Assembly: GCF_021462415.1 (NCBI RefSeq)
Contig: NZ_JAKEDS010000004.1
Span: forward strand, 186,001 to 250,000
From: Rhodohalobacter sp. 614A
GTDB lineage: Bacteria; Bacteroidota; Rhodothermia; Balneolales; Balneolaceae
DNA length: 64,000 nt
Direction: 5' to 3'
A model generated the notes under the pieces. The model was not told where the DNA came from and searched no databases. It was given only the letters and a program-made list of their open reading frames with translations. The position numbers and the translations under genes were made by a program. Within the stretch, counting starts at the first letter, position 1. Every line of letters begins with the position of its first letter. This document shows positions 1,359 through 15,816 of the stretch, one piece after another.

Positions 1359-1379
1359 AGCTGTTTATCCGCAAGAGCC

Positions 1380-1438
1380 ATCGGATGAATGTTTGAGAGC
1401 TTAAAAAATACTTTAAGCACATTCACTCATCCGGTGAT
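1380..1438. terminator. Long hairpin between convergent genes
   Basis: The arms ATCGGATGAATGT and ACATTCACTCATCCGGTGAT pair with one small bulge. They enclose a second perfect stem, GCTTAAA/TTTAAGC (1399-1405 and 1412-1418). It lies between the convergent transhydrogenase and DUF429 genes and could end transcription from either side. There is no strong T-run directly after it, so the terminator role is an inference. Confidence 0.4.
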
Positions 1439-1448
1439 TCACTTTAGA

Positions 1449-2156
1449 TTAAACGTAATGAATTGCTTTAATCAACCCGCTTGAGTCTTTTTCCGGGTTT
1501 TCAGGAAGTGTTTTTATCCCCTTTTCTACAGATTGCTTTGCACCGAGTGCAAGAGCCATGGAATCCACGATATCATCTTCCTCTACCTCATTTCGCCGGA
1601 AATCCTCTTTGATATCCCGGAAAAAATCCTTGGCGATATCTTCCCGTTCGCTCACCAGTGAGAGCCGATGGCGTAATCCTTTCTTCGTGTTCTTCTTCTG
1701 AAAAATCATTCCGCCATTCAAATTCATAAAAAGCAGCTCCGGGTGGCTCTCAAAAACCACATTCTGAAGTTCGGGCTCTTCAGTCAGAAATCGATCAACC
1801 ACTTTTATTTTTGGCGTGATATTCCATGCCTGAACAGTCATTTTCTTTTCGGTGAATTCAAAACTTTGCATGTTGGCTTCCACGTAAGATGGTGCATGCA
1901 AAGCCGGACGAATGGGCGGATTAAATACACTTGCCGCGTATTCCGGACCCAGTTTTTTTCGTAGAAGCGCATCGCATTCGCGTGTATATTGGTCATCCTC
2001 CAGGCCGATTGGCATATCAATAAAAATACGATCAAACCGATGAAAGGCATCCTTCAAATCATCATCGGTACGCAGTACTTCATATTTGGGATTGTCTTCG
2101 TCAAATGTGATCAAAATCCAGCCGGCTTTACAGCCGTCAATTCCGGCAGTTTTCAA
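1449..2156 (-). CDS. DUF429 family predicted nuclease
   Basis: This 235-residue protein belongs to the DUF429 family, thought to have an RNase H-like fold. Characteristic blocks are GIDGCKAGWI at the N-terminus, FIDMPIGL near residue 50, an ESHPELLF block in the middle, and DDIVDSMALALGA near the C-terminus. The acidic residues in these blocks fall where an RNase H-type metal site would be. The biological substrate is not known for the family. The gene stands alone: it is convergent with the transhydrogenase and separated from aspS by a palindromic repeat. Confidence 0.8.
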   Translation of the reverse strand: MKTAGIDGCKAGWILITFDEDNPKYEVLRTDDDLKDAFHRFDRIFIDMPIGLEDDQYTRECDALLRKKLGPEYAASVFNPPIRPALHAPSYVEANMQSFEFTEKKMTVQAWNITPKIKVVDRFLTEEPELQNVVFESHPELLFMNLNGGMIFQKKNTKKGLRHRLSLVSEREDIAKDFFRDIKEDFRRNEVEEDDIVDSMALALGAKQSVEKGIKTLPENPEKDSSGLIKAIHYV

Positions 2157-2192
2157 ATTATTTTCGCTTTAATTGATGGTTGGTTATTAATC

Positions 2193-2291
2193 GTCATTGG
2201 CATTGGATTCATCGCGAGGAGAAGACGCTCCGACGAAGCAATCTATCCGTGGTGATAAATCCTGAGATTGCTTCGCCTGGCTCGCAATGAC
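2193..2291. repeat. Palindromic interspersed repeat (MITE/REP-like)
   Basis: The outer ends read GTCATTG...CGCGAGGAG and, on the other strand, GTCATTGCGAG. Each inner arm holds a (G/A)CGAAGCAATCT block, so the element is an imperfect inverted repeat of about 99 bases. Sequences of the form GTCATTGCGAG...CGAAGCAATCT are a recurrent intergenic repeat type in many bacterial genomes. Only one copy is present here. It fills most of the gap between the DUF429 gene and aspS. Confidence 0.6.
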
Positions 2292-2298
2292 ATACACA

Positions 2299-4077
2299 CT
2301 AATTACTTTTTGCAGTATTTCTCAATGAAATATGAAGCTCTCGGAGTTGTTTTTCATCCACTGTGCCCGGTGAATTATCCATCAGGCTCTGTGCTTTTTG
2401 ATTCTTCGGAAATGCGATGACATCCCGCAGGCTTTGCGCGCCGGACATCAGCATAATCAGCCGATCCAGACCGAAAGCAATTCCGCCATGAGGAGGCGCT
2501 CCGTATTTAAAAGCGTTCATTAAAAATCCGAACTTCTCTTCCGCTTCTTCATCATCAATACCGAGTACATTAAACACTTTCTGTTGCAACTCGGAATCGT
2601 GAATACGAATGGAGCCGCCGCCAAGCTCATTTCCGTTCAGAACAAGGTCATAAGCCCGTGACTTCACTTTCTCGGGTTCATCATCCAGCAATGCCACATC
2701 TTCTGGTTTCGGCGCCGTAAACGGATGATGAAGCGAATGATATCGTAAATCTTCTTTGGACCACTCGAGTAACGGAAAATCCGTAACCCACAAGAATTTC
2801 GTTTCATCTTTTCTGATGAGATCAAAATCTTTGGCCACCATTAAACGCAGCGTTCCCATTTGCTTAAACACATCGGGTGACGGACCAGCAAGAATTAACA
2901 CCAAGTCTCCATCTTTGGCGCCAGATGTATTTGCCATGTTAGCCATGGTTTCATCATCCAGGAACTTACCGACACTACACGTAATTTCGCCTTCCTGAAG
3001 CTTCATGAAAATCATTCCGGCTGCACCGGTCTGCGATTGAACGCGTTCGGTCAATCGGTCGAGTGCGCCTCTTCCCATACTTCCCTCACCGGGAACCGTG
3101 ATGGAAACCACAGCACCGCCTTTGGCAACGGTTGACTGAAAAATTTTGAACTCGGAATCCTTCACATCTTGTGAGATATCATTGATTTCCAGGCCAAACC
3201 TGAGATCGGGTTTGTCGGACCCATATTTGTGAATGGCTTCTTCGTATGGCATTCTCTGGAAAGGTGTTTCTATATCCACATCTAAATGTTCTTTCCAAAG
3301 TTTTACCATCAACTCTTCATGAGTTGCATAAATATTTTCTTCATCAACAAACGACATTTCAACGTCAATCTGTGTGAATTCCGGCTGTCGGTCAGCTCTT
3401 AAATCCTCATCCCGAAAACATTTCACAATCTGGAAATAGCGGTCCATTCCGGAAACCATTAATAATTGCTTGTATGTCTGTGGGCTCTGGGGCAATGCAA
3501 AAAACCGCCCAGCATTTACACGGCTTGGCACCAAATAATCACGCGCACCTTCCGGAGTAGAACGCATCAGTACCGGGGTTTCCACTTCAGCAAATTCGTT
3601 CTCATGGTAAAAATTGCGAACCGAGTGATATACATCCGATCGTAGCATCAGCTTCTTCTGGATTTCGGGCCGGCGAATATCCAGATACCGATACCGAAGG
3701 CGCGTCTCCTCATTTGTCGGAATTCCATCTTTTATCTCGAACGGAGGCGTATCCGCTTTGGAGTAAACGGTCAGTTCGGTAACCTCTACTTCAATCTGGC
3801 CGGTAGACATCTCAGGATTTACGGTTTCCTCGTCCCTTTCAATCACTTTTCCCTTCACCCCTATTACAAACTCCGTGCGAAGATCTTCAGCCAATTCATG
3901 CAGTTCCTTATTGGTTTCATCGAATACAATCTGTGTAATTCCATACCGGTCCCGGAGGTCGATAAAAATAAGGCCGCCTAAATCGCGCCGGGTATTAATC
4001 CAGCCATTCAGCACTACCTCCTCTCCCTCATTACTACTCGTTAATTCGCCACATGTATGGGTTCGGTTCCAACTCAT
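2299..4077 (-). CDS. aspS: Aspartyl-tRNA synthetase
   Basis: This class II aminoacyl-tRNA synthetase attaches Asp to tRNA-Asp in the cytoplasm. The 592 residues match the usual bacterial length. An N-terminal OB-fold anticodon domain (NGWINTRRDLGGLIFIDLRD, about residues 25-45) is followed by the catalytic domain. Motif 2 is visible in FRDEDLRADRQPEFTQID and motif 3 in AFGLDRLIMLMSG. The bacterial GAD insertion lies between them. The C-terminus keeps the QSLRDVIAFPK block typical of the family. The start ATG follows an AT-rich region shared with the divergent membrane-protein gene. Confidence 0.97.
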   Translation of the reverse strand: MSWNRTHTCGELTSSNEGEEVVLNGWINTRRDLGGLIFIDLRDRYGITQIVFDETNKELHELAEDLRTEFVIGVKGKVIERDEETVNPEMSTGQIEVEVTELTVYSKADTPPFEIKDGIPTNEETRLRYRYLDIRRPEIQKKLMLRSDVYHSVRNFYHENEFAEVETPVLMRSTPEGARDYLVPSRVNAGRFFALPQSPQTYKQLLMVSGMDRYFQIVKCFRDEDLRADRQPEFTQIDVEMSFVDEENIYATHEELMVKLWKEHLDVDIETPFQRMPYEEAIHKYGSDKPDLRFGLEINDISQDVKDSEFKIFQSTVAKGGAVVSITVPGEGSMGRGALDRLTERVQSQTGAAGMIFMKLQEGEITCSVGKFLDDETMANMANTSGAKDGDLVLILAGPSPDVFKQMGTLRLMVAKDFDLIRKDETKFLWVTDFPLLEWSKEDLRYHSLHHPFTAPKPEDVALLDDEPEKVKSRAYDLVLNGNELGGGSIRIHDSELQQKVFNVLGIDDEEAEEKFGFLMNAFKYGAPPHGGIAFGLDRLIMLMSGAQSLRDVIAFPKNQKAQSLMDNSPGTVDEKQLRELHISLRNTAKSN

Positions 4078-4175
4078 AAAAATCTTATTGATTAAATCTG
4101 TATTAAATCGTTTTCTTTGTAAGCGGCAAAAATAATCATTCTGATAACCATTCGCTCATTTGATCTTAAACTTTT

Positions 4176-4607
4176 ATGCAGAACCTTATCCTTATTGCCA
4201 ATATTTTCAGCAGTTTTGCACTTTCCGGGTTGATTTGGTGCGTGCAAATGGTTCACTATCCATTTTTCCTGCGTTCCGATCAGGTACATTTTGTGGAGCA
4301 CATCGCGTTTCACAAAAACCGGATATCATTGATAGTAGCCCCATTGATGATTTTGGAACTGGTAACATCAGGCATTCTTTCCTTCCAATCTGAAACGCAT
4401 ACCGGTTTGAATATTTTCGGCTTTGTGGTTGTCATCCTCATATGGCTTGTAACGTTTTCAGTACAAGTACCCCTTCACGGAAAATTATCGAACGGATACG
4501 ATGAACAAACCATTCAAAAACTGATCCAAACAAATTGGATTCGAACTTTTTTATGGACGGTTAAATCTTTTTCAAGCTTATATCTATTGAATGCTATCAT
4601 GCCATAA
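4176..4607 (+). CDS. Small four-helix membrane protein of unknown function
   Basis: This 143-residue protein has about four hydrophobic segments (roughly residues 3-25, 52-72, 82-103 and 122-140) and is expected in the inner membrane. His residues cluster in the first loop (VEHIAFHKNR). A QVPLHGKLSNG stretch follows helix 3. The overall look resembles small DUF1772-type membrane proteins, but I cannot assign a family firmly. It is divergent from aspS with about 100 bases between, and transcribed toward the LuxR-type regulator, though the 201-base gap makes an operon unlikely. Confidence 0.65.
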   Translation: MQNLILIANIFSSFALSGLIWCVQMVHYPFFLRSDQVHFVEHIAFHKNRISLIVAPLMILELVTSGILSFQSETHTGLNIFGFVVVILIWLVTFSVQVPLHGKLSNGYDEQTIQKLIQTNWIRTFLWTVKSFSSLYLLNAIMP

Positions 4608-4808
4608 TCAAAGCTATCATAAAAAAACTTTACATTTTAGGATAAAGGATTATATTCAAAGTTGTAAAAGAAGGTTGTACAGAGTTTTATAAGTTATGGC
4701 GGACATATAAAGCAATCTCCTCTCTTTATTCATGGAATGGAAATTGTCCCACTTTGTTCGCAATTAGATCTATACTTCCTTTAAAAGACGGACCTCTCAG
4801 CGATCATT

Positions 4809-5453
4809 ATGGGCAAAGTTCATGTATTAGTTGCGGAAAGTTCTGACATCTACAGGCGCGGGTTAGAAACTGTTTTAAAAGAATCCTCAAAGATCCAGCT
4901 GGGGAAAGTCTGTACCTCGGGGAAAGAACTTGTCAGGCACTATAAAAAGTCGTCTAATTCTGTCTGCCTGGTTTCTTCGGGAATATCCGACATGAATATT
5001 CATGACCTGATGCAGGAACTTGAAAAGGTCAACAAAAATGCGGCCGTTGTTGTTTTAACTCACTCCACAGAAATCTCGCATCTTAACCAATCTTTGAAAG
5101 CCGGTGTTAAAGGTTATCTGACGAAGAATGCTTCCATTGATGAATTGATTCATGTCATCCTCCATGTACATGACGGTAAACAGGCTTTTGGCAAAACGGC
5201 TTCACAAATGATGATTGGCAGGTATGCAGACATCACCAAAAAAACGCCTACCGCAAACAAAAAGCTGATTACAAAACGTGAGAGAGAAATCATGAAATTA
5301 ATCGTGAAGGGTTACACAAGTGCAGAAATAGCAAACCAACTCTTTATCAGCACACGTACTGTAGAAACACATCGGGCTAATCTTATGAACAAGCTCGAGC
5401 TAAAAAATACAGCTGCTCTTGTTCGGTATGCCATGGAAGAAAATCTCGGATAA
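4809..5453 (+). CDS. LuxR/NarL-type transcription regulator with degenerate receiver
   Basis: The 214-residue protein has a CheY-like N-terminal domain (about 1-125) and a C-terminal LuxR-type HTH (about 148-208; KREREIMKLIVKGYTSAEIA and ISTRTVETHRANLMNKL). The DNA-binding half looks intact. In the receiver, the phosphoacceptor region reads CLVSSGISDMN, so the Asp that normally accepts phosphate is Ser (about residue 56). The N-terminal acidic pair is reduced to AESSD, while the later Thr and Lys positions (VVLTHST, GYLTK) are kept. It probably works without phosphorylation or with another signal. No kinase gene is adjacent. Confidence 0.85.
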   Translation: MGKVHVLVAESSDIYRRGLETVLKESSKIQLGKVCTSGKELVRHYKKSSNSVCLVSSGISDMNIHDLMQELEKVNKNAAVVVLTHSTEISHLNQSLKAGVKGYLTKNASIDELIHVILHVHDGKQAFGKTASQMMIGRYADITKKTPTANKKLITKREREIMKLIVKGYTSAEIANQLFISTRTVETHRANLMNKLELKNTAALVRYAMEENLG

Positions 5454-5573
5454 CTCAATCATGCTACGTATTTATACGTAATTAAATTACGTTCAAATAC
5501 TTATTGCAGAAAGCTATTGATAAAAGTATGTTAATTTTGCAAATGGGGTAATAGCCGTCTGTAGATGATATTT

Positions 5574-5609
5574 AGCAGCATTCTTTGATCGGAATGCTGC
5601 TAATTTTTT
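5574..5609 (+). terminator. Rho-independent terminator
   Basis: A perfect 10-bp stem, AGCAGCATTC/GAATGCTGCT, with an 8-base loop is followed by AATTTTTT. It lies about 120 bases beyond the LuxR-type gene and is oriented to end its transcript. The gap before it is AT-rich and also holds the palindrome TACGTA-TTTA-TACGTA at about 5465; no gene is seen there. Confidence 0.75.
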
Positions 5610-5702
5610 GCTCTTTAGTTTCAGTTTCCTCACCTCAACACGCCTAAAATAAACAGAAAATCTCGACTGGATATTGTGTTCTGATTTTTCAGAAGAGACG
5701 AA

Positions 5703-6659
5703 CTACCTGTTGGTAAATTCTTCGATGAGGTTCTTGAAAAAAGGAATCAAAACTTTTGAGGTTTTTACCTTTTGTTGATGAGACATTTTCCGCGGCGGCC
5801 CACCGGGATGGCTGTTTATATCTACAACATAAATCTTTCCATCGCTGTCTCGCAGTACATCACATTCTCCATAATCAATCCCCATTTTTTTATTCATTTC
5901 AAGAATGTTGGAAATCTCATCTTCAGCAAAAACCTCATCCGGTTGTTTGACTTCAACCCTATCGTAGTGGCCTGTAAACTGAAATTCATACGGCCGATAT
6001 TTCAGATAGACAATCGGAATCTTGCCGGCATAAACAGGAACTCTGTATACAACCGTCAGGCCATCAAACCCGGAGATGTTTTTAATTTCTTTTTGATAAA
6101 CATAATCATCATGAATTTCCTCAGCAGTAATCGGCCCTCCGATAACGGTAGCGAAATTTGTTCCGTTATAAATTGATTTTTTTACAATAGAACCGTGGTA
6201 AGTTGTAGGATCAACATCCAGGGAGTAACCAAATATTTCTTCAAAATAGCGGCCGACTAATTCTTTACTCAGATTTGTGCAGTGGCTATTTATAATTTTT
6301 TCTCCCCTCTCTGCAAAACGCTGTATATCAGATGGATCGGGAAATGTTGAACTATGCGACCAAAAAATGACATCGCCCTTTTTCTGTGGATTTATTGAAA
6401 TCTTGTATCCACACAACGCACATAATTTATAGATTACATGATACTTTGAAGGACGGCCGGGATAACAAAGAAGAGTTTTTTCCGGGCTGAAAAACATCCG
6501 TAAAGCTCCGGACAAGTTTTTAAAAAATGAAAAGTTTGTATATTCGCGCCTGATTAAAAAAAAACCTCTTACATCCTTCGCGGAAGCATAGATGTCTCGT
6601 AAAACATGGTAAGCCGAAATAGGTAATATTTGTTTTGAAAATTTTCTGACTGCCATCAA
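5703..6659 (-). CDS. ATP-grasp family ligase-like protein
   Basis: This 318-residue protein appears to be an ATP-grasp enzyme. The C-terminal half holds GECDVLRDSDGKIYVVDINSH followed by PGGPP, which matches the Mg/ATP-binding end of the fold (acidic strand, then D-x-N). The N-terminal third is basic with YPGRPSKYHVIYKLCALCGY. ATP-grasp enzymes usually join a carboxylate to an amine or thiol through an acyl phosphate; the substrate here is unknown. The gene is divergent from the glycosyltransferase at 6776, about 117 bases away, so both may share a control region. Its sequence differs from the five ATP-grasp paralogues downstream. ATG ATG at the start leaves the exact start open by one codon. 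Confidence 0.7.
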   Translation of the reverse strand: MMAVRKFSKQILPISAYHVLRDIYASAKDVRGFFLIRREYTNFSFFKNLSGALRMFFSPEKTLLCYPGRPSKYHVIYKLCALCGYKISINPQKKGDVIFWSHSSTFPDPSDIQRFAERGEKIINSHCTNLSKELVGRYFEEIFGYSLDVDPTTYHGSIVKKSIYNGTNFATVIGGPITAEEIHDDYVYQKEIKNISGFDGLTVVYRVPVYAGKIPIVYLKYRPYEFQFTGHYDRVEVKQPDEVFAEDEISNILEMNKKMGIDYGECDVLRDSDGKIYVVDINSHPGGPPRKMSHQQKVKTSKVLIPFFKNLIEEFTNR

Positions 6660-6775
6660 AAATTTACAGGTAGAATTGTTGCCGGGGAAAAATCATTCAA
6701 GTTTAAGCATTATTGGTCTACAAACGAATTGAAAAATAAATTATCTCTTGAAGATCCAAACGTTTTAATTGATCG

Positions 6776-7624
6776 ATGAACATTCATCTGTTTTCATTTA
6801 TTCGGAACGAAACATACCTGTTGCGTAAATGGATTCCCTACCATGCATCTATTATTGATCTAGATAAAATTCACATTATTGATCATAAATCTGACGAGCC
6901 CGGGTGCCTCTCTTTATTGAAGAAATATGAAAACAAAGGTCTGGATGTGACCAAAACATCGAAGGATTTCAGCTTGAAGCACAAGCTTCTCACACAGTTA
7001 ATGCATCAATATAAATCCGAAGCCGACATTTTGATTCCTCTGGATGCCGACGAATTTTTGTGCTTATCAGAGGATGATCAATCCATGAATGCCGAGCCTG
7101 CAGCCATCAAAAAATATCTTGATTCAATCCCCATTAATGGAAAAAAATATTCCTTTAACGTATTTGAAGCCGTTCTGGACCAGATCGATTATGATGACCC
7201 TCTCGTGGAAATGAATATTTTTGAACACTTTCCAGCATCAGAAACGGCAAGCGGACCCAATCAGCAAACCAAGACCTTTTACCCGGCAAAAAACTTTGGA
7301 TATACCGACCAGGGAAATCATAAAGGCGGAGTGCTTCTGGCGCCTAATGATCTTTACAACACCACAAAAATGGCCATCGCTCATTTTCATATGCAGGGGT
7401 TCACACATTTTTTGAGCAAACTGGAAAAGGCAGTAGATGCTTACCATTTGGAAGATCTTCCTGAGAACTATGTAGGAACGGGAATGCGTTGGAACCGGTG
7501 GTATCATCAAACAAAAGAGCTCAATTATGACCAAAAGATGGCGTGGTTTGAGAAAAATTTCGTAATAAAAGATGCAGGGGTAAAACAAACTACGTTATCA
7601 GAAACATTTAAGAATTTGGAATAG
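6776..7624 (+). CDS. Glycosyltransferase family 2-like protein
   Basis: The 282-residue protein begins IHLFSFIRNETYLLRKWIPYH, the pattern of the Glyco_tranf_2_4/GT92-like group, in which the N-terminus precedes a short nucleotide-binding fold. PLDADEFLCL (about residues 88-97) supplies the DxD metal motif for a nucleotide sugar. There is no membrane helix, so it probably acts in the cytoplasm. It heads a three-gene plus-strand run: 9 bases separate it from the first PP-loop gene, and the second follows 20 bases after that. Tight packing suggests that the sugar transfer and the PP-loop chemistry serve one pathway. Confidence 0.75.
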   Translation: MNIHLFSFIRNETYLLRKWIPYHASIIDLDKIHIIDHKSDEPGCLSLLKKYENKGLDVTKTSKDFSLKHKLLTQLMHQYKSEADILIPLDADEFLCLSEDDQSMNAEPAAIKKYLDSIPINGKKYSFNVFEAVLDQIDYDDPLVEMNIFEHFPASETASGPNQQTKTFYPAKNFGYTDQGNHKGGVLLAPNDLYNTTKMAIAHFHMQGFTHFLSKLEKAVDAYHLEDLPENYVGTGMRWNRWYHQTKELNYDQKMAWFEKNFVIKDAGVKQTTLSETFKNLE

Positions 7625-7633
7625 ACTCGTTTA

Positions 7634-8392
7634 ATGAATTTTGAAGAACCCATTAAACTTCTGTGGACCGGCGGCTGGGACTCTACGTTCCGTCTGCTTC
7701 AAATCCTGCTAGAAGAGAAGAAAGAAGTACAACCATTCTACTTTATTGATCCGGCTCGTAAATCTCTTGGCGTTGAAATTCAGTGCATGCATAGACTCAG
7801 GAAAAGTATCTTTGAACAATATCCTGAAACTGAGAACCTGATATTACCTACCAACTATATCAACATCGCAACCATTAAGCACGATGAAGAAATTGAACAG
7901 GCTCTCCGAACTTTAAATAACTATATCCCTTTGGGACGTCAGTATAGCTGGCTTGCCGGGTTTTGTAAACAAACCAATATCAGTGGGTTGGAGATGTCGA
8001 TTGAGAATGGTGTGAATGACGATATGGGTTGGAAAAATCTGCCGTTTCTAAAAAACAATTTTTCTGCTGATCCTAAAACCCTTTCTGAGAGAGAGCGGGT
8101 TATCTATTCAACATCTAAAACACTATTCAGCTACTTCAAGCTTCCGATCATCAACATCAATAAAAAAGAGATGTTTGAAATTGTAAAACAAAACGGCTGG
8201 ATGCCTGTAATGAAAAAAACCTGGTTTTGTTATCAACCTTTTTATCTCCCCCTTAAAGGATTGGTACCCTGTGGAAATTGCATTACCTGCAGATTTCAGG
8301 AAAAAAGTGACTTCGACTGGACAATACCTACTTATGTAAAATGGTTTCAACGGGCACGTAAATTCAAGAGCAAACTAACCCGTTCAATTTAG
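7634..8392 (+). CDS. QueC-like PP-loop ATPase, copy 1
   Basis: The 252 residues carry the PP-loop signature TGGWDST (12-18), which binds ATP in enzymes that adenylate a substrate. A Cys cluster follows at 199, 213, 216 and 219 (C-x13-C-x2-C-x2-C, within TWFCYQP...CGNCITC), like the zinc site of QueC. QueC turns 7-carboxy-7-deazaguanine into preQ0, but this protein differs greatly in the middle and sits away from any queuosine gene, so it is not called queC. QueC relatives of other function occur in accessory loci. The next gene is a close paralogue (roughly half the residues identical by eye). Confidence 0.75.
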   Translation: MNFEEPIKLLWTGGWDSTFRLLQILLEEKKEVQPFYFIDPARKSLGVEIQCMHRLRKSIFEQYPETENLILPTNYINIATIKHDEEIEQALRTLNNYIPLGRQYSWLAGFCKQTNISGLEMSIENGVNDDMGWKNLPFLKNNFSADPKTLSERERVIYSTSKTLFSYFKLPIININKKEMFEIVKQNGWMPVMKKTWFCYQPFYLPLKGLVPCGNCITCRFQEKSDFDWTIPTYVKWFQRARKFKSKLTRSI

Positions 8393-8412
8393 CAAACAAT
8401 TTTCCAGGGGTA

Positions 8413-9225
8413 ATGCTTTCCAAAGAAATAGACTGGCCGCAAACGCAACAAACCTTTTCTTCAGTTCAAACAAATGGAGATACATCTGAGGTTATTGATT
8501 TGCTTTGGACGGGCGGATGGGATTCCACTTTCCGGCTTCTTCAAATTCTTCTCCATGAAAAGAAAATCGTTCAGCCTTACTATGTAGTTGATTCCACCAG
8601 AAATTCACTCGGAGTCGAAATCTATTTCAGGAATGTTTTAAAAGAAGCGATTTTTGCGCGTTATCCTCAAACCAAAAACTTTCTTCTGCCCACAATTTAT
8701 ATAAATATTGACTCCATTGAACCTGATGACGAGATCCAGCAAGCATATCAGGATTTAAAGAAATATGTACCGCTTGGGAATCAGCATGAGTGGCTGCCAC
8801 GGTTTTGTAAACAACATCAAATTTATGGGATGGAAATGTCTACCGAAAACGGCTCTACTCCTGAAGAACTTTGGGTAAATTCGAGATTCTTAAAAAATCA
8901 CTTTTCAGACGATCCTCAAACGCTTTGTGAACGCGACTTTTTTCTTTACCAAACTTCAAAAAAACTCTATAAATACTTTCGTTTTCCGGTTATCCATTTT
9001 TCCAAACAGGATATGCTTGACGAAGCCCAAAAAAATGACTGGCTGCCAATCTTAACAAAAACCTGGTTTTGTTATCAGCCGTTATATATTCCCGTAAAAG
9101 GGTATGTGGCCTGCGGGAATTGTGTGACATGCAAGTATTTAAAACGAATTGACTTCGACTGGCGAATTCCATTCTACAGCAAATGGATACAGGACCTAAG
9201 AAAGTTTATAAAGAAGGTTTCCTGA
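8413..9225 (+). CDS. QueC-like PP-loop ATPase, copy 2
   Basis: The 270-residue paralogue of the preceding gene has a 20-residue N-terminal extension. The PP-loop TGGWDST is at 33-39. The Cys cluster is at 220, 234, 237 and 240, with the same C-x13-C-x2-C-x2-C spacing. The blocks LLWTGGWDSTFRLLQILL, TKTWFCYQP and DFDWRIP are nearly the same in both, while the central part has diverged. Tandem duplication followed by divergence suggests two related substrates or a hetero-oligomer. It is the last gene of the plus-strand run and is convergent with the ATP-grasp array, only 20 bases from its last stop codon. Confidence 0.75.
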   Translation: MLSKEIDWPQTQQTFSSVQTNGDTSEVIDLLWTGGWDSTFRLLQILLHEKKIVQPYYVVDSTRNSLGVEIYFRNVLKEAIFARYPQTKNFLLPTIYINIDSIEPDDEIQQAYQDLKKYVPLGNQHEWLPRFCKQHQIYGMEMSTENGSTPEELWVNSRFLKNHFSDDPQTLCERDFFLYQTSKKLYKYFRFPVIHFSKQDMLDEAQKNDWLPILTKTWFCYQPLYIPVKGYVACGNCVTCKYLKRIDFDWRIPFYSKWIQDLRKFIKKVS

Positions 9226-9227
9226 TC

Positions 9228-9257
9228 TATCCGAAATAAAAAATTTTATTCGGGATA
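9228..9257. terminator. Hairpin between the two convergent operons
   Basis: TATCCGAAATAAAA and TTTTATTCGGGATA form a stem with single-base bulges (core CCGAA/TTCGG and TAAAA/TTTTA). It lies between the second PP-loop gene and the last ATP-grasp gene and overlaps the stop codon of the latter. A/T runs inside the stem could allow termination from both directions. Confidence 0.5.
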
Positions 9258-10472
9258 CTTTCTCATCCACTCTTCAAATAACTCAGGATAATCGGTATCG
9301 ATAAGAGCTTTATTTAAAGTACTTTCTACAATGTCGGCTCCCCAACCGATATTTCCTTCAACCACACAGGGACCTTTCTCTGTCAAAGCAATATCCCACC
9401 CGAGAAACGCAGTTTTAAAATTGGCGTGAATGTAGAGAGCGTAATCAATTACTTCATCAAAATGAGGCAATCTGCTCCCGACAATGGGCTGATTTGTATC
9501 CGGATGATGATCAAAAAGAAAACTTCCATTGATTGGTTTTGCCGCCAAAGCCCTGTTCAGGATTCCGGTTTCCAGATCAATGGGAGCAGCGATTCCACCG
9601 AGAGCAAAATTATCAGCATCCAGGTTGCCAATCGGCATTCTCAGAACACAAAATAACGGTTTGATACTATTATCTGATGGCATTCTTGCAGTTACAATTC
9701 TGCAGGTGGCTAAGCTACCCGATGTAAACGGAAGCCAAGAAACATGATTTTTTTCGACTTTTTGTACTAGCGTTCCCCGAACTTTTTTCGAGTAGTCAGA
9801 AAGAAACGTGTAAATCTGTTTTTTTGAATAAACCTTGCCTTTGTTGTCGGAATACTGACCCTTTTTAAAATAAAACTTCTTTACTCCCTGACCTGATTTT
9901 CCGGTAATATCTTTTACAAAAATATCTGATTCAGGAATGTGCAGACTCTCGTTTTCCGGATAAATTAAGGTTCCGTTTTCAAACGCACCAATAACTTGCG
10001 GTGAGTGAATGGATTGATTTTGCCAATATTTAAAAAAATTCAGCTTACTTCGTAAGATCTGGTTTTCTTCCAGGTATGATTTACGAACCAATTCGTACTG
10101 TACTTCATACTGATCGAAAGCAAACCTGTCAACTTGTTCCCATCGTTCATCTAAAAACAACAGGTAACTTCTGAAGTATTTTGGGTTCACTCCTTTGATA
10201 AATGTCAGGTACATCATCCGGCAGAACTGCTGGAAGATCGAACAGCCATATTCCTTTTGGATTACAGGGCCGTAAGTTCTCATCTGCAACAAAATATTTA
10301 TTCCCCATTTGGCGGAATAAATCAAATTATCTTTCATCCATCTAAAAGTTTGGATGAATGAAAAATCTGACCACCTTTTCAGATCACGCAGGTAATTAAA
10401 AAAGAACTTCTTCCGAATATTTAAAATCCGGTTAAACCAACGTTTTGTATCGTCTGACTCCATTTTATTCAT
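9246..10472 (-). CDS. Sugar-transfer-associated ATP-grasp protein, paralogue 5
   Basis: This is the last of five tandem paralogues of the ATPgrasp_ST type, a family predicted to take part in cell-surface polysaccharide synthesis. In its 408 residues the N-terminal 110 are basic and aromatic-rich. The ATP-grasp part has FVK (Lys187), a Gly loop GKSGQG (191-196), CRIVT (257-261), RMPIGN and GWDIAL, and ends with the Mg-binding VVEGN (372-374). HHPDTNQ (322-328) is a block shared by all copies. The start overlaps the stop of the previous gene in ATGAATAA; an ATG three codons in is the alternative. No membrane segment or signal peptide is clear. Confidence 0.8.
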   Translation of the reverse strand: MNKMESDDTKRWFNRILNIRKKFFFNYLRDLKRWSDFSFIQTFRWMKDNLIYSAKWGINILLQMRTYGPVIQKEYGCSIFQQFCRMMYLTFIKGVNPKYFRSYLLFLDERWEQVDRFAFDQYEVQYELVRKSYLEENQILRSKLNFFKYWQNQSIHSPQVIGAFENGTLIYPENESLHIPESDIFVKDITGKSGQGVKKFYFKKGQYSDNKGKVYSKKQIYTFLSDYSKKVRGTLVQKVEKNHVSWLPFTSGSLATCRIVTARMPSDNSIKPLFCVLRMPIGNLDADNFALGGIAAPIDLETGILNRALAAKPINGSFLFDHHPDTNQPIVGSRLPHFDEVIDYALYIHANFKTAFLGWDIALTEKGPCVVEGNIGWGADIVESTLNKALIDTDYPELFEEWMRKYPE

Positions 10473-11697
10473 CGGACTCTAAAAATTTCTCCATCCATTT
10501 TTCGTAAAGTATTGGATAGTTTGTGTCGCGAAGCGGCTTTATATTCGGGCATTCATAGCTGCGGCTGGCCCATCCAATATTTCCCTCCACAACGGCGGGT
10601 CCGGCTTTCGTCATGCTGATATCCCAGCCTACAAAAATAGTACTGAATTTGGAGTGTGTTTGCCGTGTGAACTCCAGGATTTCCTTCCAAAAAGGTAATT
10701 TTTCGCCATCAACTTTTTGTCCGGTATCGGGATGATGGGTAAAATCGAAACTCCCATTCGCTGCTTTTAACCCTGATGCAATGCTCAATTGCCCAGTCTC
10801 CAAATCAATTCCAGAATAAAATCCACCTTTGGAAAAATTATCAATATAGGCATCACCAACTGGCATTCGAAGTGCTGCAAATAACGGTATTACGGATCCG
10901 TCATCCGGTGACTTTGCCGTTACAATCCGCGCGGTTGCAAGCGCACCGGAAGTAAAGCCGCTCCATGAAGAATGGTTTTCAATCACATCCTGCAGAATAA
11001 TGCCGCTTTTTATCGATTCTTTGCTAAGAACTTCAGAAAGCTCTTCTGGCGTGAACGTATTTCCTTTGTTATCCAAAAATTTACCGTCCGACCATTTTAT
11101 CCTTCTGATGCCCTGTCCGGCTTTTCCATGAAGATATTTGATGAACAGATTCTGATGAGGTAAACCGAATGAAGAATCTGCAGAAAAACTCATAGATCCA
11201 TTCTCGTAAATGGCCAGAATTTGTGGCGTGGCAATCTTTTTGGAGAGACAAAATTTTAAAAATTCAAACTTGTTCTCCAGGATTTTAATCTCTTCAGGAA
11301 ATGATACTTCTGCCAGGTTATACTGAGATTCATCATGTTTGTAAGTATAATCATCTACATTTTTCCAGCTTTCGGAAAGATAAAGCCGGCGACCACGAAT
11401 ACTTTTCGGATCCACTTGATGATAAAACGCCAAATATGCCATCCTCCAAAATTGCTGCCGTTTGGAAAGCCCGTACTTCTTCTGAATGATTGGGCCGTAC
11501 GTTCGAAGTTGTAGCAGAATATTTAGCCCCCATTTTTTCACATAGAAAAAATCATCGCTAATCCAACGAATAATTTGTTTTAAACGGCTCGCACCTGGAT
11601 TCTTTCTATATCCAAGCTTTTGAAAAAAGTATCGTCGCCTTTCATTCTGAACCCGCGCCCACCAGATCTTCCTGTAATCAGCAGCTAATTTATTCAT
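10465..11697 (-). CDS. Sugar-transfer-associated ATP-grasp protein, paralogue 4
   Basis: I place the start at the ATG at 11697 (410 residues). A longer frame opens at 11817, but it would overlap the upstream gene by 128 bases, and the extra 40 residues have no match in the sister proteins. From 11697 the N-terminus aligns (MNKLAADYRKIWWARVQ, then RRRYFFQK), and the start overlaps the upstream stop in ATGAATAA, as at the next junction. Key residues are kept: LFIK, GKAGQG, ARIVT (Ala where the sisters have Cys), RMPVG, GWDIS and VVEGN (371-373). Expected role as for the sister genes: ATP-dependent carboxylate activation on an unknown, probably glycan-linked substrate. Confidence 0.8.
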   Translation of the reverse strand: MNKLAADYRKIWWARVQNERRRYFFQKLGYRKNPGASRLKQIIRWISDDFFYVKKWGLNILLQLRTYGPIIQKKYGLSKRQQFWRMAYLAFYHQVDPKSIRGRRLYLSESWKNVDDYTYKHDESQYNLAEVSFPEEIKILENKFEFLKFCLSKKIATPQILAIYENGSMSFSADSSFGLPHQNLFIKYLHGKAGQGIRRIKWSDGKFLDNKGNTFTPEELSEVLSKESIKSGIILQDVIENHSSWSGFTSGALATARIVTAKSPDDGSVIPLFAALRMPVGDAYIDNFSKGGFYSGIDLETGQLSIASGLKAANGSFDFTHHPDTGQKVDGEKLPFWKEILEFTRQTHSKFSTIFVGWDISMTKAGPAVVEGNIGWASRSYECPNIKPLRDTNYPILYEKWMEKFLESDE

Positions 11698-12913
11698 GGT
11701 TGCCGCAAGTCTCCATCCATTTTTCAAATATCTCCGGGTATTGCGTGTTTTTGATTGGCTTCTCGTAAGGAGATTCATATGTAGATACACCCCATTCAAG
11801 ACTTCCTTCCAGAACACAGCATCCGTGGTCAGTCAGACAAATATCCCAGCCCACAAAAGCCGACCTGACTTTTCTGTGCATCTTCAATGCAAAAGCCAAT
11901 AAATCAATCCATTCCGGAAGCACGGTCCCCTCAACTCTTTGTTTTGTATCCGGATGATGTGTGAACTCATAGAAACCGTTTATTGGTTTACTTCCAACGA
12001 GGGTTCCGAGCATTCCCGTTTTAACATCTACCGGTGCAGCAATTCCGCCTGCCGAAAAGTTATCTACATGCATGGTTCCAACCGGCATTCTGAAGGTCGC
12101 AAAAAGTGGTTTAATTTCAGAACTGTCTGGTGTTCGATACGTCACAATTCTGCAGGTAGCCAACGCACCAGAGGTAAACTTACTCCAAGATGGATGATTT
12201 TTGATCACATGTTGAAGCAAAACCGGATAGTTTTTTATGGAAGTTTCTTCCAATAAATTAAACAAGCTTTCCTCATTATAGCGATTTCCTCTATTGTCAG
12301 TGTAAACTCCATCCTGATAAAGCAATTTTTTTGCCCCCATTCCCATCATTCCATTCATTTTTTTGATGAAAAGATCTTCTTTGGGGAGCTGTTTATTCTC
12401 GAATTCAGAAAAGATACATCGGCCATTTTCATACGCTGCCAGAACACTTGGCGAACGAAAGTCATATTCCCTGCAAAATTGAAAGAAGAGAAATTTATTC
12501 AGAAAAAGATCTATTTCATCCGGAAACAAAGCATTGGAAAACGTTCGTTGCACATTAACATGGGCGAAGGCATAGTCATCTACATTACTCCAATTTTTCT
12601 GCTTAAATAGGCGGTATTTTCTAAAATTTCTGGGGTTCACCCTTATGACGAATGCAAGGTAGGCCATTCTGGAAAACTGTCGAAGAAAGGAAATATGGTA
12701 GTTTCTTTTGATGTCGGCGCCATACATTCTGATCTGAATAAGGATATTGAATGTCCACCGGAAAACATAGATTGCATCATTTTTAAAGCAGACAAACTTT
12801 TTGAATACTGAGACATTTTCTTCTTCTGAGGATTTTTCAAAAAAATAAGATCTCTTTGACTTCTGAAGGCGATTCCACCATCGCTGTCTGTAAATATCCT
12901 CCTGCTTTGTCAT
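11690..12913 (-). CDS. Sugar-transfer-associated ATP-grasp protein, paralogue 3 (altered metal motif)
   Basis: The start is set at the ATG at 12913 (407 residues), because it overlaps the previous stop as ATGA and aligns with the sister proteins; an upstream ATG at 12940 would add 9 residues. The protein keeps FIKK, the Gly loop GMMGMG, CRIVT, FRMPVG, HHPDTKQ and GWDIC. The terminal metal motif, which is EGN in the four sisters, here reads EGS (369-371) followed by LEWG. The Asn normally helps to hold Mg-ATP, so this copy may be slower, use a different metal arrangement, or act as a non-catalytic partner. Confidence 0.8.
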   Translation of the reverse strand: MTKQEDIYRQRWWNRLQKSKRSYFFEKSSEEENVSVFKKFVCFKNDAIYVFRWTFNILIQIRMYGADIKRNYHISFLRQFSRMAYLAFVIRVNPRNFRKYRLFKQKNWSNVDDYAFAHVNVQRTFSNALFPDEIDLFLNKFLFFQFCREYDFRSPSVLAAYENGRCIFSEFENKQLPKEDLFIKKMNGMMGMGAKKLLYQDGVYTDNRGNRYNEESLFNLLEETSIKNYPVLLQHVIKNHPSWSKFTSGALATCRIVTYRTPDSSEIKPLFATFRMPVGTMHVDNFSAGGIAAPVDVKTGMLGTLVGSKPINGFYEFTHHPDTKQRVEGTVLPEWIDLLAFALKMHRKVRSAFVGWDICLTDHGCCVLEGSLEWGVSTYESPYEKPIKNTQYPEIFEKWMETCGNHE

Positions 12914-14139
12914 GCCGTTTGGGTGTATTTTTCCATCCATTTTTCATACAGTTCCGGGTAAATTGTCCGGCTAAGGGGAATCTGGTTTGTATTTTCGAAG
13001 AGGCCTGCAGACCAGGTAATATTTCCTTCAATCATATAGCACCCATCGGTGGTCATACTTACATCCCATCCTACAACCAGGGTTTTAAAATAGCCATGTA
13101 CATCTAAAGCAAATGCCAGAATATCATTCCAGAAAGCAAGCTTAGTACCTTCAATTTGCTGTTTTGTATCGGGATGAACCGTCCATTCAAATTGACCATT
13201 TACAGGTTCTACGGTTACAGCTCTTCCTAAAATTCCATTTTCTAAGTTCACTGAAGATGCAAGTCCCCCGGTTGAATAGTTATCGTTATCTGCATTTCCT
13301 ACAGGCATTCTGAAAGTAGCGAAAATAGGAATAATGGAATTTTCTTCCGGATGCCTGGCCGTGACAATCCTGCATGTGGCCAAACTTCCGGGTGTAAATA
13401 CCTGCCATGCAGAATGGTTTTTCAACACTTCCTGAACAATCAAATCACTGTTGGATTGTGATGATTGAAGCAAATACTCATGCACATCTTCTGCAGAGAG
13501 CTTTGTTTGATTCTTATCCGAATAAATTCCTTCTGAATAAGTTAGCTTCCGAACTCCCGCTCCTTTTCCCCCTTTCTGTTCTTTTATAAAAACATCTTTC
13601 CGCGGCAATTTAAATTCCTCCCGGGGAGGATAAACAGCCTTTCCATTATTGAAAACTGAAAACACCGTCGGTGTCTTAATCTTCATTTGGGAGCAAAAGG
13701 AGTAGAATTCAAACTTGTCTTCAATAATGTCTATTTCTTCAGGATACGATGCTTTGGCTAAATCAAGTTGAGTGATGACTTGTCCGTATTCATACTGATC
13801 CGCAAACTGCCAGTTTTTTGGTTTAAATAGTTGTCGTTTCCTGTATTGGATGGGATGTTCGCGAATCACAAATCGAAGGTACATCAGTTGCCAAAACTGC
13901 CTCGGATAAGACGTCTTATAATTCTCGCGAATAACTTTTCCGTACTTTCGAATTTGTAATATTATGTTTTTGATCCATTTGAAAATAAAGACAAAATCAT
14001 TTTTCATCCATCTCCATAACTGACTCAAAGATGGCCTCTTTTCTTGTGAAGCTTTCCATCGTTCAAAAACATAACGCCTTCTTGTTCGAAGTATCCGTTG
14101 GCGCCAGCGATGTTTATAAACAGCATCCGGTTGAATCAT
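12910..14139 (-). CDS. Sugar-transfer-associated ATP-grasp protein, paralogue 2
   Basis: The 409-residue paralogue starts at an ATG whose last bases overlap the preceding stop (ATGA at 14136-14139), which suggests translational coupling. The N-terminus is strongly basic (HRWRQRILRTRRRY). The ATP-grasp landmarks are VFIK, GGKGAG, CRIVT, FRMPVGN, VHPDTKQQ, GWDVS and MIEGN (371-373), so the catalytic set is complete. The residues around the active-site end (EGNITWSAG) differ from the EGNIGW of copies 1, 4 and 5, which hints at a different acceptor or donor. Confidence 0.8.
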   Translation of the reverse strand: MIQPDAVYKHRWRQRILRTRRRYVFERWKASQEKRPSLSQLWRWMKNDFVFIFKWIKNIILQIRKYGKVIRENYKTSYPRQFWQLMYLRFVIREHPIQYRKRQLFKPKNWQFADQYEYGQVITQLDLAKASYPEEIDIIEDKFEFYSFCSQMKIKTPTVFSVFNNGKAVYPPREEFKLPRKDVFIKEQKGGKGAGVRKLTYSEGIYSDKNQTKLSAEDVHEYLLQSSQSNSDLIVQEVLKNHSAWQVFTPGSLATCRIVTARHPEENSIIPIFATFRMPVGNADNDNYSTGGLASSVNLENGILGRAVTVEPVNGQFEWTVHPDTKQQIEGTKLAFWNDILAFALDVHGYFKTLVVGWDVSMTTDGCYMIEGNITWSAGLFENTNQIPLSRTIYPELYEKWMEKYTQTA

Positions 14140-15362
14140 ACAGCCCCGATTTTATCCATCCATTTCTCAAATAATTCAGGATAGATAGTATTTTTCAAAG
14201 AATCCTGAAATGGAATTTCATAACTGCATGAGGCCCAGCCGATATTCCCCTCAACAACACAGCATCCTTCGGTAGTAAAAGAAATATCCCAGCCAATAAA
14301 AATAGTTTGAAAATTAGAGTGGAGATCAAGTGTAAATTCTAATATTTCCTTCCAATGCGGCAGTGATTCTCCCTCAATCTGTTGCATTGTATTTGGATGC
14401 TTTGACAGTTCAAATTTGTCATCGTATGGTTTCAGAGTAACGCCTGAACCCATTATCCCTGTTTGTTGGTCTATGGGAATGATAAGCCCTCCCTTGGAAT
14501 AGTTGTCTGTATCAGAATTTCCTAAAGGCATTCGCACTGCTGAAAACATGGGAATAATAGAATGTTCATCCCCGGGATTTATCGCGGTTACAATTCGGCA
14601 GGTTATAAGTCCACCGCTGGTAAATTTTTTCCATGAAGAATGATTTTCAAGTGCTTTTTGAACAAGAACTCCACTGTTTTTTTCCGACCCTGTCTTTATA
14701 AGCTGAATAACCTGATCTGAAGAATACTGTTTTCCCGAAGAGTCTGAATAGAATCCATCTTTATATGTGAATTTTTTGGCTCCGTCGCCGGCAACTCCAT
14801 AAAGATCTTTTGCAAATAAATCTGTTGCGGGAACCGGATATTCATCAAAGTTTTGATAAATCTGTTCGCCCTGTTTGTACACAGCTACCACATCAGCACA
14901 TGGAATATTCAATTCATCACAGTATTGGCAGAATTTAAATTTATTTCTCAATATTTCTATCTCATCAGCACTTGTTCGATTCACAAAATCATACTGTACT
15001 CTCCCGTGAAAGAGAACAAAATCGTCCGCCATCTCCCAATTTCTCTGTTTGAATAGCAGCCGGGTTCGGTAATGTTTGGGGATACTTGGGACTACAAAGG
15101 TAAGGTACATCAGGCGTAACCATTGCTGTGCATAAGAAGTGCCATATTCACGTTGGATCAAATTGCCGTATGCCCTTATTTGGAGAAGAATGTTGAGTCC
15201 CCATTTGGTAACGTAAGCAAGATCCGCTTTTATCCATCCAAGTACCTTGGATAAAGACTGAATACTTAATCCATCCAAGAGATGCATTTTCTGAAAGAAA
15301 TAATGCCTTCGTGTTTTTTTAACGCGCTCGAGATATTTTTCCCAATATTTGTCGTTACTCAT
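14136..15362 (-). CDS. Sugar-transfer-associated ATP-grasp protein, paralogue 1 (first in operon)
   Basis: This is the promoter-proximal member of the five-gene array, with 408 residues. It has the common N-terminal region (RRHYFFQK, WGLNILLQIRAYG, Y-x2-S-x3-Q-x2-RL) and a complete ATP-grasp domain: LFAK, GVAGDG, CRIVT, VRMPLGN, KHPNTMQQ, GWDIS and VVEGN (371-373). The family is known mainly from polysaccharide gene clusters, and no member with a proven reaction is known to me. About 167 bases lie between its start and the terminator of the tRNA-Met gene, so its promoter must be there. Confidence 0.8.
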   Translation of the reverse strand: MSNDKYWEKYLERVKKTRRHYFFQKMHLLDGLSIQSLSKVLGWIKADLAYVTKWGLNILLQIRAYGNLIQREYGTSYAQQWLRLMYLTFVVPSIPKHYRTRLLFKQRNWEMADDFVLFHGRVQYDFVNRTSADEIEILRNKFKFCQYCDELNIPCADVVAVYKQGEQIYQNFDEYPVPATDLFAKDLYGVAGDGAKKFTYKDGFYSDSSGKQYSSDQVIQLIKTGSEKNSGVLVQKALENHSSWKKFTSGGLITCRIVTAINPGDEHSIIPMFSAVRMPLGNSDTDNYSKGGLIIPIDQQTGIMGSGVTLKPYDDKFELSKHPNTMQQIEGESLPHWKEILEFTLDLHSNFQTIFIGWDISFTTEGCCVVEGNIGWASCSYEIPFQDSLKNTIYPELFEKWMDKIGAV

Positions 15363-15529
15363 TTATGCCCTGCAACAATCAGTTGACTTTTTCCTATCAA
15401 AAAATTGGTTAAATGAAAAGCTATTGCAATAGCTATGAATAATTTTCTTTCGAAAATATATCATTCTGTAGCAGAATTTTCTTTACGCACTCTCTCTCGA
15501 AGAGCTGGGAATCAGACATTTTGTTCAAT
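15363..15529. other. Upstream region of the ATP-grasp array, no gene
   Basis: AT-rich non-coding stretch between the first ATP-grasp gene and the tRNA-Met terminator. It should contain the promoter of the array, but I see no convincing promoter motif or operator. With the tRNA (15573-15649), its terminator and the 167 empty bases before proS, it makes up the 454-base gap from 15363 to 15816. Confidence 0.5.
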
Positions 15530-15569
15530 AAAAAAAGGCTACATCACACAATTTGTAATGCAGCCTTAA
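15530..15569 (-). terminator. Rho-independent terminator of tRNA-Met
   Basis: On the minus strand, AAGGCTGCATTACA pairs with TGTGATGTAGCCTT over 14 bp with two G-U pairs, followed by TTTTTT. It starts a few bases after the tRNA 3' end and separates the tRNA transcript from the ATP-grasp operon. Confidence 0.85.
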
Positions 15570-15572
15570 CTT

Positions 15573-15649
15573 TGGTACCGTGGGAGGGACTTGAACCCTC
15601 GACCTCCGGGTTATGAATCCGACGCTCTTACCACCTGAGCTACCACGGT
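15573..15649 (-). tRNA. tRNA-Met (CAT anticodon)
   Basis: The minus strand folds into a complete cloverleaf. The acceptor stem is ACCGTGG/CCACGGT and the D stem GCTC/GAGC. The anticodon loop is TTCATAA with anticodon CAT, and the T arm is GAGGG-TTCAAGT-CCCTC. A discriminator A and an encoded CCA follow. The anticodon stem has one A-C mismatch next to the loop and a terminal U-G pair. The D arm and stem pattern resemble elongator tRNA-Met rather than the initiator; tRNA-Ile2, which also has CAT, is the alternative. Confidence 0.9.
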
Positions 15650-15816
15650 ATGACCCTTTAAAAAATCAGAGCCTAAAAGATACCATTTTTATAAGAATGG
15701 TGAAACGTTTCTTTCCATATTTCTTTTCCTCGTCATACTTTTATAATTGATCTTTATCTTAAGCGGATCAAAAGGTATTTTTCTGAACACAATTTTAATG
15801 AAGTAAAAATAAACAG

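Follow-up and report, generated by a model that had tools for sequence, protein, structure and literature searches.

What might a bacterium make with nine consecutive genes, eight of which encode proteins of ATP-using activation folds? The question is raised by positions 5703-15362 of a 64,000-nucleotide stretch of Rhodohalobacter sp. 614A (contig NZ_JAKEDS010000004.1), referred to here at its full length as the window. An original prediction, made from the letters of the sequence, had described the genes as six ATP-grasp ligases, two QueC-like PP-loop proteins and one glycosyltransferase of DADE type, and this inventory is borne out: all nine open reading frames (ORFs) lie intact at the places given for them, and Pfam, predicted folds and the identity between the two PP-loop proteins agree with it. 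We propose, with a probability of about 0.6, that these genes form an accessory cassette which is exchanged at a variable spot of the chromosome and whose enzymes make amide bonds, one after another and driven by ATP, on a surface polysaccharide or its precursor unit. The proposal is built on the gene content, the folds (by prediction for the PP-loop protein PP1 and the ATP-grasp protein grasp0), the retained active-site residues, the insertion at a variable spot, a partial linkage of the gene types and the glycan context in relatives. Each enzyme class at the locus is already known, and ATP-grasp ligases have been proposed in glycan loci before (PMC4431377); what we did not find described is their pairing.

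On the minus strand, grasp0 (5703-6659) stands alone and divergent from a plus-strand run of GT2, PP1 and PP2 (6776-9225) with internal gaps of 9 and 20 bp; this run converges with a minus-strand run in the order ST5-ST4-ST3-ST2-ST1 (15362-9246), whose members overlap by 4, 31, 8 and 8 bp if ST2 is started at the ATG at 11697. That start is more probably correct, judging from the sequence alignment, than the one first listed for this gene (10465-11817). From this spacing we infer operons. The Pfam cut-offs used were 27.5 bits for Glyco_tranf_2_4, 22 for QueC (PF06508) and 31.4 for ATPgrasp_ST (PF14397); a scan of the nine proteins against NCBIfam gave no model above cut-off. The DADE motif is visible in the GT2 translation. 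The features are as follows.

5572-5603, plus strand: terminator-like hairpin that follows the LuxR-type regulator and lies immediately outside the insert's left edge (pattern scan).
5703-6659, minus strand: grasp0, divergent ATP-grasp ligase (predicted fold and invariant residues; no Pfam family above cut-off).
6776-7624, plus strand: GT2-type glycosyltransferase, Glyco_tranf_2_4, with DADE motif (PF13704, 48.1 bits).
7634-8392, plus strand: PP1, QueC-like PP-loop protein of the WTGGWDS clade (PF06508, 28.5 bits; predicted fold).
8413-9225, plus strand: PP2, paralogue of PP1 (55% identical; loop and cysteines kept; QueC 19.7 bits, below cut-off).
9246-10472, minus strand: ST1, ATPgrasp_ST ligase, last of five (PF14397, 131.3 bits).
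10465-11697, minus strand: ST2, ATPgrasp_ST ligase (PF14397, 141.7 bits; probable start from alignment and ATG).
11690-12940, minus strand: ST3, ATPgrasp_ST ligase, in which EGS replaces EGN at the presumed metal site (PF14397, 126.8 bits; alignment).
12910-14139, minus strand: ST4, ATPgrasp_ST ligase (PF14397, 143.7 bits).
14136-15362, minus strand: ST5, ATPgrasp_ST ligase, first of the run (PF14397, 122.5 bits).
15535-15567, minus strand: terminator-like hairpin behind tRNA-Met, just outside the insert's right edge (pattern scan).
15573-15649, minus strand: tRNA-Met (CAT), right neighbour of the variable spot (ARAGORN).

The nine genes occupy an insert that is slightly wider than they are, 5610-15526 (9,917 bp), with a LuxR-type regulator and aspS on its left and tRNA-Met and proS on its right; these flanks are core genes. 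In the related genome G005, whose ProS is 88.5% identical, homology ends at the partner of window position 5609 and resumes at that of 15527, and the two are just 78 bp apart, so the 9,917 bp are absent there (genomes are given by G numbers, the regions and loci read by L numbers). Both edges of the insert adjoin terminator-like hairpins, the two longest of the 17 found in a pattern scan (8.7 expected). We compared 18 proS regions from the genus: nine (L038, L039, L042, L044 and L048-L052) have no ORF of at least 100 aa between regulator and proS, five (L043, L045, L046, L053 and L054) carry other genes at the spot, L041 is too short, L040 has other genes on a contig that ends before the regulator, and the remaining two are those of G015, with two ST genes, and of G017, with one PP gene. 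The two ATPgrasp_ST proteins that G015 encodes at the spot share 36-52% identity with the window's five, compared with 89% for ProS. Because the contents vary in this way and the identity of the G015 proteins lies far under that of ProS, the spot exchanges diverged cargo; simple vertical descent of the cargo is rejected on the same identities. Two routes of arrival were also tried and rejected: integration via tRNA-derived repeats, since none of the 13-mers in 15521-15720 is found again, on either strand, in 1-15500, and carriage by phage or plasmid, since a tblastn search with PP1 gave no match in a phage or plasmid collection. The original prediction had noted that transporter, polymerase and integrase genes are missing; the insert holds no polymerase, flippase or exporter, and no integrase was found among the part of the window's genes scanned with Pfam.

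What kind of proteins are PP1 and PP2? They have in common with the QueC superfamily (PF06508) the PP-loop fold, an ATP-pyrophosphatase loop and a C-terminal four-cysteine zinc-type motif, but they carry WTGGWDS in place of SGGxDS, have no QueC substrate motif and have ATP-grasp genes as neighbours. In an alignment of 24 relatives (A3), W-T-G-G-W-D-S is found without exception, as is the pattern TGG[WY]DS (24/24); the loop is partly selected for in this set, because 14 of the rows came from a scan baited with LLWTGGW or KTWFCYQ, the other ten being found by whole-sequence search. Proteins found later include the loop variants WTGGYDS (one of G074) and WTGGFDS (one of G573). Residues S44, E48, Q103, P171, C199, P202, C213, C216 and C219 are invariant in the 24, and the zinc-type motif CxnCxxCxxC is present in all of them with n = 7-13 (n = 8 in 15/24). 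The SGGxDS ATP loop of QueC occurs in none of the 24, and neither does any of the three canonical QueC substrate motifs YxQxHxxE, VPxRN and YPDC, as these are described in PMC13329287.

Profile scores point the same way. PP1 passes PF06508 (28.5 vs 22 bits), and PP2, at 19.7 bits, does not, yet it is 55% identical to PP1. Against the QueC model TIGR00364 of NCBIfam (cut-off 150.3), PP1 reaches 25.3 bits and PP2 gives no match. The host genome, which is 99.3% complete, has no TIGR00364 match above cut-off; a first-look scan of the same genome gave no strong QueC either, though its filter missed PP1 and PP2 themselves. In G180, a genome that we return to below, there is one TIGR00364 match above cut-off in addition to three PP genes. 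Judged by sequence, the PP proteins are best placed in a distinct QueC-fold clade and are not QueC. We reject a queuosine or QueC role, given that TIGR00364 is not reached, that the substrate motifs are absent from all 24 and that the host is without canonical QueC.

The predicted structure of PP1 (mean predicted local distance difference test score, pLDDT, 89.8) is closest to Cap9 (Foldseek E 4.8e-5; Z 11.7 over 160 residues, root-mean-square deviation 3.3), followed by QueC (Z 9.8) and QatC (Z 9.5); the PP1 sequence gave chance matches only among solved structures, and a profile reached QueC at E 0.03-0.04 among chance matches. Clusters of PF06508 mapped in PMC13329287 are QueC, QatC, Cap9, WbpG-type, LarE and GMPS, with small clusters left unanalysed; the main text of that paper has no words beginning 'ATP-grasp', 'polysaccharide' or 'glycosyl', and names lipopolysaccharide for WbpG. 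Cap9 of type IV CBASS (cyclic-oligonucleotide-based anti-phage signalling system) is reported to be an ATP-dependent QueC-fold ligase that joins a deazaguanine acid to a protein N-terminus (PMC13329287, PMC13279940). By its model, PP1 shares the QueC-like fold of Cap9, but the window's PP genes have no CD-NTase (cGAS/DncV-like nucleotidyltransferase) neighbour and no YPDC-type recognition motif, and the context in relatives is glycan rather than defence. PseA is, alongside WbpG, a type of N-acetyl sugar amidotransferase, and PP-loop proteins stand in glycan loci in both that group and ours. The two differ in their motifs, Cx7-13CxxCxxC and TGGWDS in the PP clade as against CxxC(x)6CxC and SGGxDSxY in the WbpG type according to PMC13329287. 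In our literature search we found no described pathway with the gene set of the locus, as had been claimed, and no description of the WTGGWDS QueC-fold clade paired with an ATP-grasp array (subscription papers and supplements lay outside the search).

The ATP-grasp side of the locus consists of a divergent single gene and a uniform array. No Pfam family matches grasp0 above cut-off, and its AlphaFold2 model (mean pLDDT 80, from an alignment of five sequences) has an ATP-grasp fold closest to LysX/ArgX (Z 15.0 over 235-238 residues) and RimK (Z 14.7), with inositol-phosphate kinases also near in the structure comparison; K161, K220, E265, D267 and D280 are invariant in the five aligned sequences. 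All five tandem proteins belong to ATPgrasp_ST (122-144 vs 31.4 bits for PF14397), and the host genome has no other member above cut-off. In ST1 numbering, K187, D360 and E372 are invariant across the five, and we take them, from the ATP-grasp fold, to be catalytic; EGN is kept in four and is EGS in ST3. What sets the window apart within the family is that its five overlapping paralogues adjoin PP genes and form a subfamily of ~410 aa which, among the 60 rows of our ST tree, comprises only these five and the two of G015. Those seven form one clade (100/100), and the four ST proteins of G180 form a separate one (96/95) on one long branch; because the clades are distinct, the tandem expansions of window/G015 and of G180 arose separately or diverged long ago. 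As a separate observation, five further genomes, all relatives, have ATPgrasp_ST genes in runs of two to four (L085-L089), with no PP in the stretches read, and the run of G023 is accompanied by PGA_cap (CapA) and RimK-like ATP-grasp genes.

How far do PP and ATP-grasp genes stay together elsewhere? PP genes are rare, being present in 9/244 genomes of the host's class, in 9/394 genomes drawn from its phylum (four of them already within the class set) and in 12/47 genomes of the order of Thioalkalivibrio; 13 loci came from a species-level collection. We read 40 of the 42 PP loci found, using profiles for ATPgrasp_ST, TupA and grasp0; the TupA profile was made from four of these loci, three of which Pfam independently calls as PF14305. 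A gene of one of these three kinds lies within 5 kb of PP in 17/40 loci, from three phyla, and within 300 bp in 11/40. Of these 17, the Thioalkalivibrio group contributes four, closely related to one another, and one genus contributes three (L172-L174), which leaves about ten separate arrangements. A check set beforehand, that PP and ATPgrasp_ST genes be sought as neighbours in other genomes, found them adjoining in G180, G074, two G009 loci and the Thioalkalivibrio group, in the last at a distance of 11-22 bp; in further lineages PP adjoins other ATP-grasp families. The fullest counterpart is in G180 (L177), from another family of the class and with a guanine-plus-cytosine (GC) content of about 0.7, where the genes of the run grasp0-PP-ST-ST-ST-ST all point the same way. 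In this locus, which is of capsule type, the run is immediately preceded by an ABC transporter gene and immediately followed by one for an epimerase, and genes for Wzz and Caps_synth are no more than 8 kb away.

With the window left out, ST lies within 5 kb of PP in 5/13 loci of the class, against a rough expectation of ~0.5% per locus; the chance probability, near 5e-9, is taken from the ST density in the genus (45 over 98.7 Mb), uses hand-entered counts and ignores joint clustering of PP and ST in glycan loci. In the PP tree, whose deep forks are weak, ST and TupA contexts are scattered, and the PP proteins of the window and G180 do not group; a common origin of these two cassettes is not borne out by this weakly resolved tree. 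The linkage of PP and ATP-grasp genes is conserved in part.

Where neighbours of PP could be recognised, they often include genes of polysaccharide synthesis. L210 has PGA_cap (CapA) beside PP and a Polysacc_synt flippase in the neighbourhood; L032 has GNAT and GT2/GT4; L016 has FemAB; L166 has a polysaccharide deacetylase; and in L172 and L173 Glyco_tranf_2_4 lies 2-3 kb away. By Pfam, TupA (PF14305) adjoins PP in L028 and L171 and is separated from it by one gene in L172; by profile, the same spacing is seen in L173. The PP neighbourhoods of L016, L032, L166, L172, L173, L177 and L210 are surface-glycan territory. TupA-like, RimK-like ATP-grasp and CapA-type capsule synthesis genes resemble our locus in joining ATP-grasp and capsule-type genes in glycan loci; none of the three is in the window's insert. 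Several high-GC PP loci have no recognised link.

If the chemistry of the folds is a guide, GT2 would place a sugar, PP1 and PP2 would convert a carboxylate, by way of its acyl-adenylate, to an amide with either ammonia or an amine as the nitrogen donor, and grasp0 and the five ATPgrasp_ST proteins would form acyl-phosphates of carboxylates for coupling to amino acids or other amines, each ATP-grasp paralogue perhaps with its own specificity. We infer these steps, their substrates and their order from that fold chemistry, and likewise the polymer and its export by machinery encoded elsewhere; the product would probably be a sugar unit of a surface polymer, completed by chromosomal genes elsewhere. 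A bolder version is tentative, and we lean towards doubting it: WTGGWDS proteins might be a separate class of zinc PP-loop amide ligases working with ATP-grasp arrays to build, free of the ribosome and on a protein template, a defined peptide-like chain on a surface sugar; how many ST paralogues there are, and in which order, would fix the length and sequence of the chain, and swapping of the cassette between species at a chromosomal spot would change the surface. In recent reports (PMC13329287, PMC13279940), QueC-fold enzymes serve phage defence as protein-conjugating ligases, and here a further QueC-fold clade is repeatedly paired with ATP-grasp ligases, often in glycan loci, across several phyla and with runs of four or five paralogues. 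If our proposal is true, the locus opens a testable way into the study of surface polymers decorated with amino acids and of the chemistry that an uncharacterised PP-loop clade performs. The empty-site comparison yields a clean deletion target.

Several findings weigh against a joint pathway for a surface glycan. At the same chromosomal spot, G015 has two ST genes alone and no PP anywhere in its genome, G017 has no ST and a single PP gene with unrelated genes behind it, G011 has one PP and no ST between the same neighbours, and in G020 PP comes after these left neighbours too, but its proS is on a different contig. By profile, 23/40 PP loci have none of ST, TupA or grasp0 within 5 kb (in 8 of these 23 the sequence available on one or both sides is shorter than 5 kb, and one, L210, has a RimK-like ATP-grasp gene beside PP). 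In the stretches read, no PP accompanies the ST arrays of G023, G017, G019, G020 and G011, a link of grasp0 to PP or ST is seen in 2/9 loci (some on short contigs), the G180 run contains no recognised GT2 gene, and the insert lacks genes for polymerase, flippase or exporter. The original prediction of a glycan-linked or peptide-like product built by successive ligations is thus only partly supported: the linkage and the glycan context of relatives favour it, and the 23 unlinked loci, the ST arrays without PP and the 2/9 for grasp0 do not.

These exceptions can also be read as separate tailoring genes (PP, ST and glycosyltransferase) that accumulate both in hypervariable glycan loci and here and share no pathway, as would fit with the finding of every gene type without the others and with cargo that varies widely across relatives; we consider this unlikely, as PP adjoins such genes at less than 300 bp in 11/40 loci, including the ST-PP pairs of the Thioalkalivibrio group and the G180 run, and the ST genes of the window overlap. 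A somewhat better case can be made for a small soluble metabolite, peptide-like or glycosylated (a non-ribosomal oligopeptide, or graspetide-like), in place of polymer decoration. Linked ligases also serve peptide metabolites (PMC4431377), operons of ATP-grasp and asparagine synthetase-type PP-loop proteins are predicted to make peptides (PMC2922099), and the insert is without polymer genes. The fold matches of the grasp0 model include MdnC and PsnB, ligases of ribosomally synthesized and post-translationally modified peptides (RiPPs), and the neighbours of PP in Lysobacteraceae are genes for an iron-containing redox enzyme and for a class III aminotransferase. Set against this are the GT2 gene within the PP run and the presence of the same gene types in glycan loci of relatives; a RiPP precursor was looked for and none is evident, the gaps holding only ORFs of at most 38 aa. 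We regard such a metabolite as possible and, on this evidence, rather improbable.

Far less probable, in our view, is a defence system in which the QueC-like proteins modify a protein as Cap9 or QatC do. The ranking of solved structures, with Cap9 ahead of QueC and QatC, and the position of a variable insert adjoining a tRNA gene would suit it. The PADLOC matches are weak, however (QueC for PP1 at E 1.7e-4, PDC-S57 for GT2 at E 0.014), no CD-NTase, QatA or QatD is found among the nine proteins by Pfam or PADLOC, and neither the substrate motifs nor a QueC above the TIGR00364 cut-off in the host is there to support it. We retain a surface-glycan cassette as the preferred reading.

Some PP loci in relatives merit separate mention. 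In Lysobacteraceae (L018:6892-10753, L020 and L027) the redox enzyme beside PP is Haem_oxygenas_2, with the class III aminotransferase next to it (by Pfam for L018, by eye for L020 and L027), and here the PP clade seems to serve another pathway. L025:127-2587, from a metagenome-assembled genome of Clostridia, has two tandem PP genes with a neighbour that by eye resembles a purine phosphoribosyltransferase, and transporter-like genes farther along. The PP gene of G003 (L036:9531-10297), whose match is spread over two reading frames, is apparently broken and adjoins an ATP-grasp_3 protein. In G009 (L032-L035) there are seven PP matches at four places, some of which may belong to another organism, because the genome is listed with 9% contamination. 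Behind the lone PP of G020 comes a large protein that combines domains of three kinds, glucuronyl esterase, hydrolase and amidohydrolase (L029:11064-14648), and ORFs of similar size, known by size alone, follow PP in G011 and G017. Finally, a ~330-aa protein with no Pfam family directly adjoins PP at L172:8832-9809 and L173:10230-11231, in two genomes of one genus.

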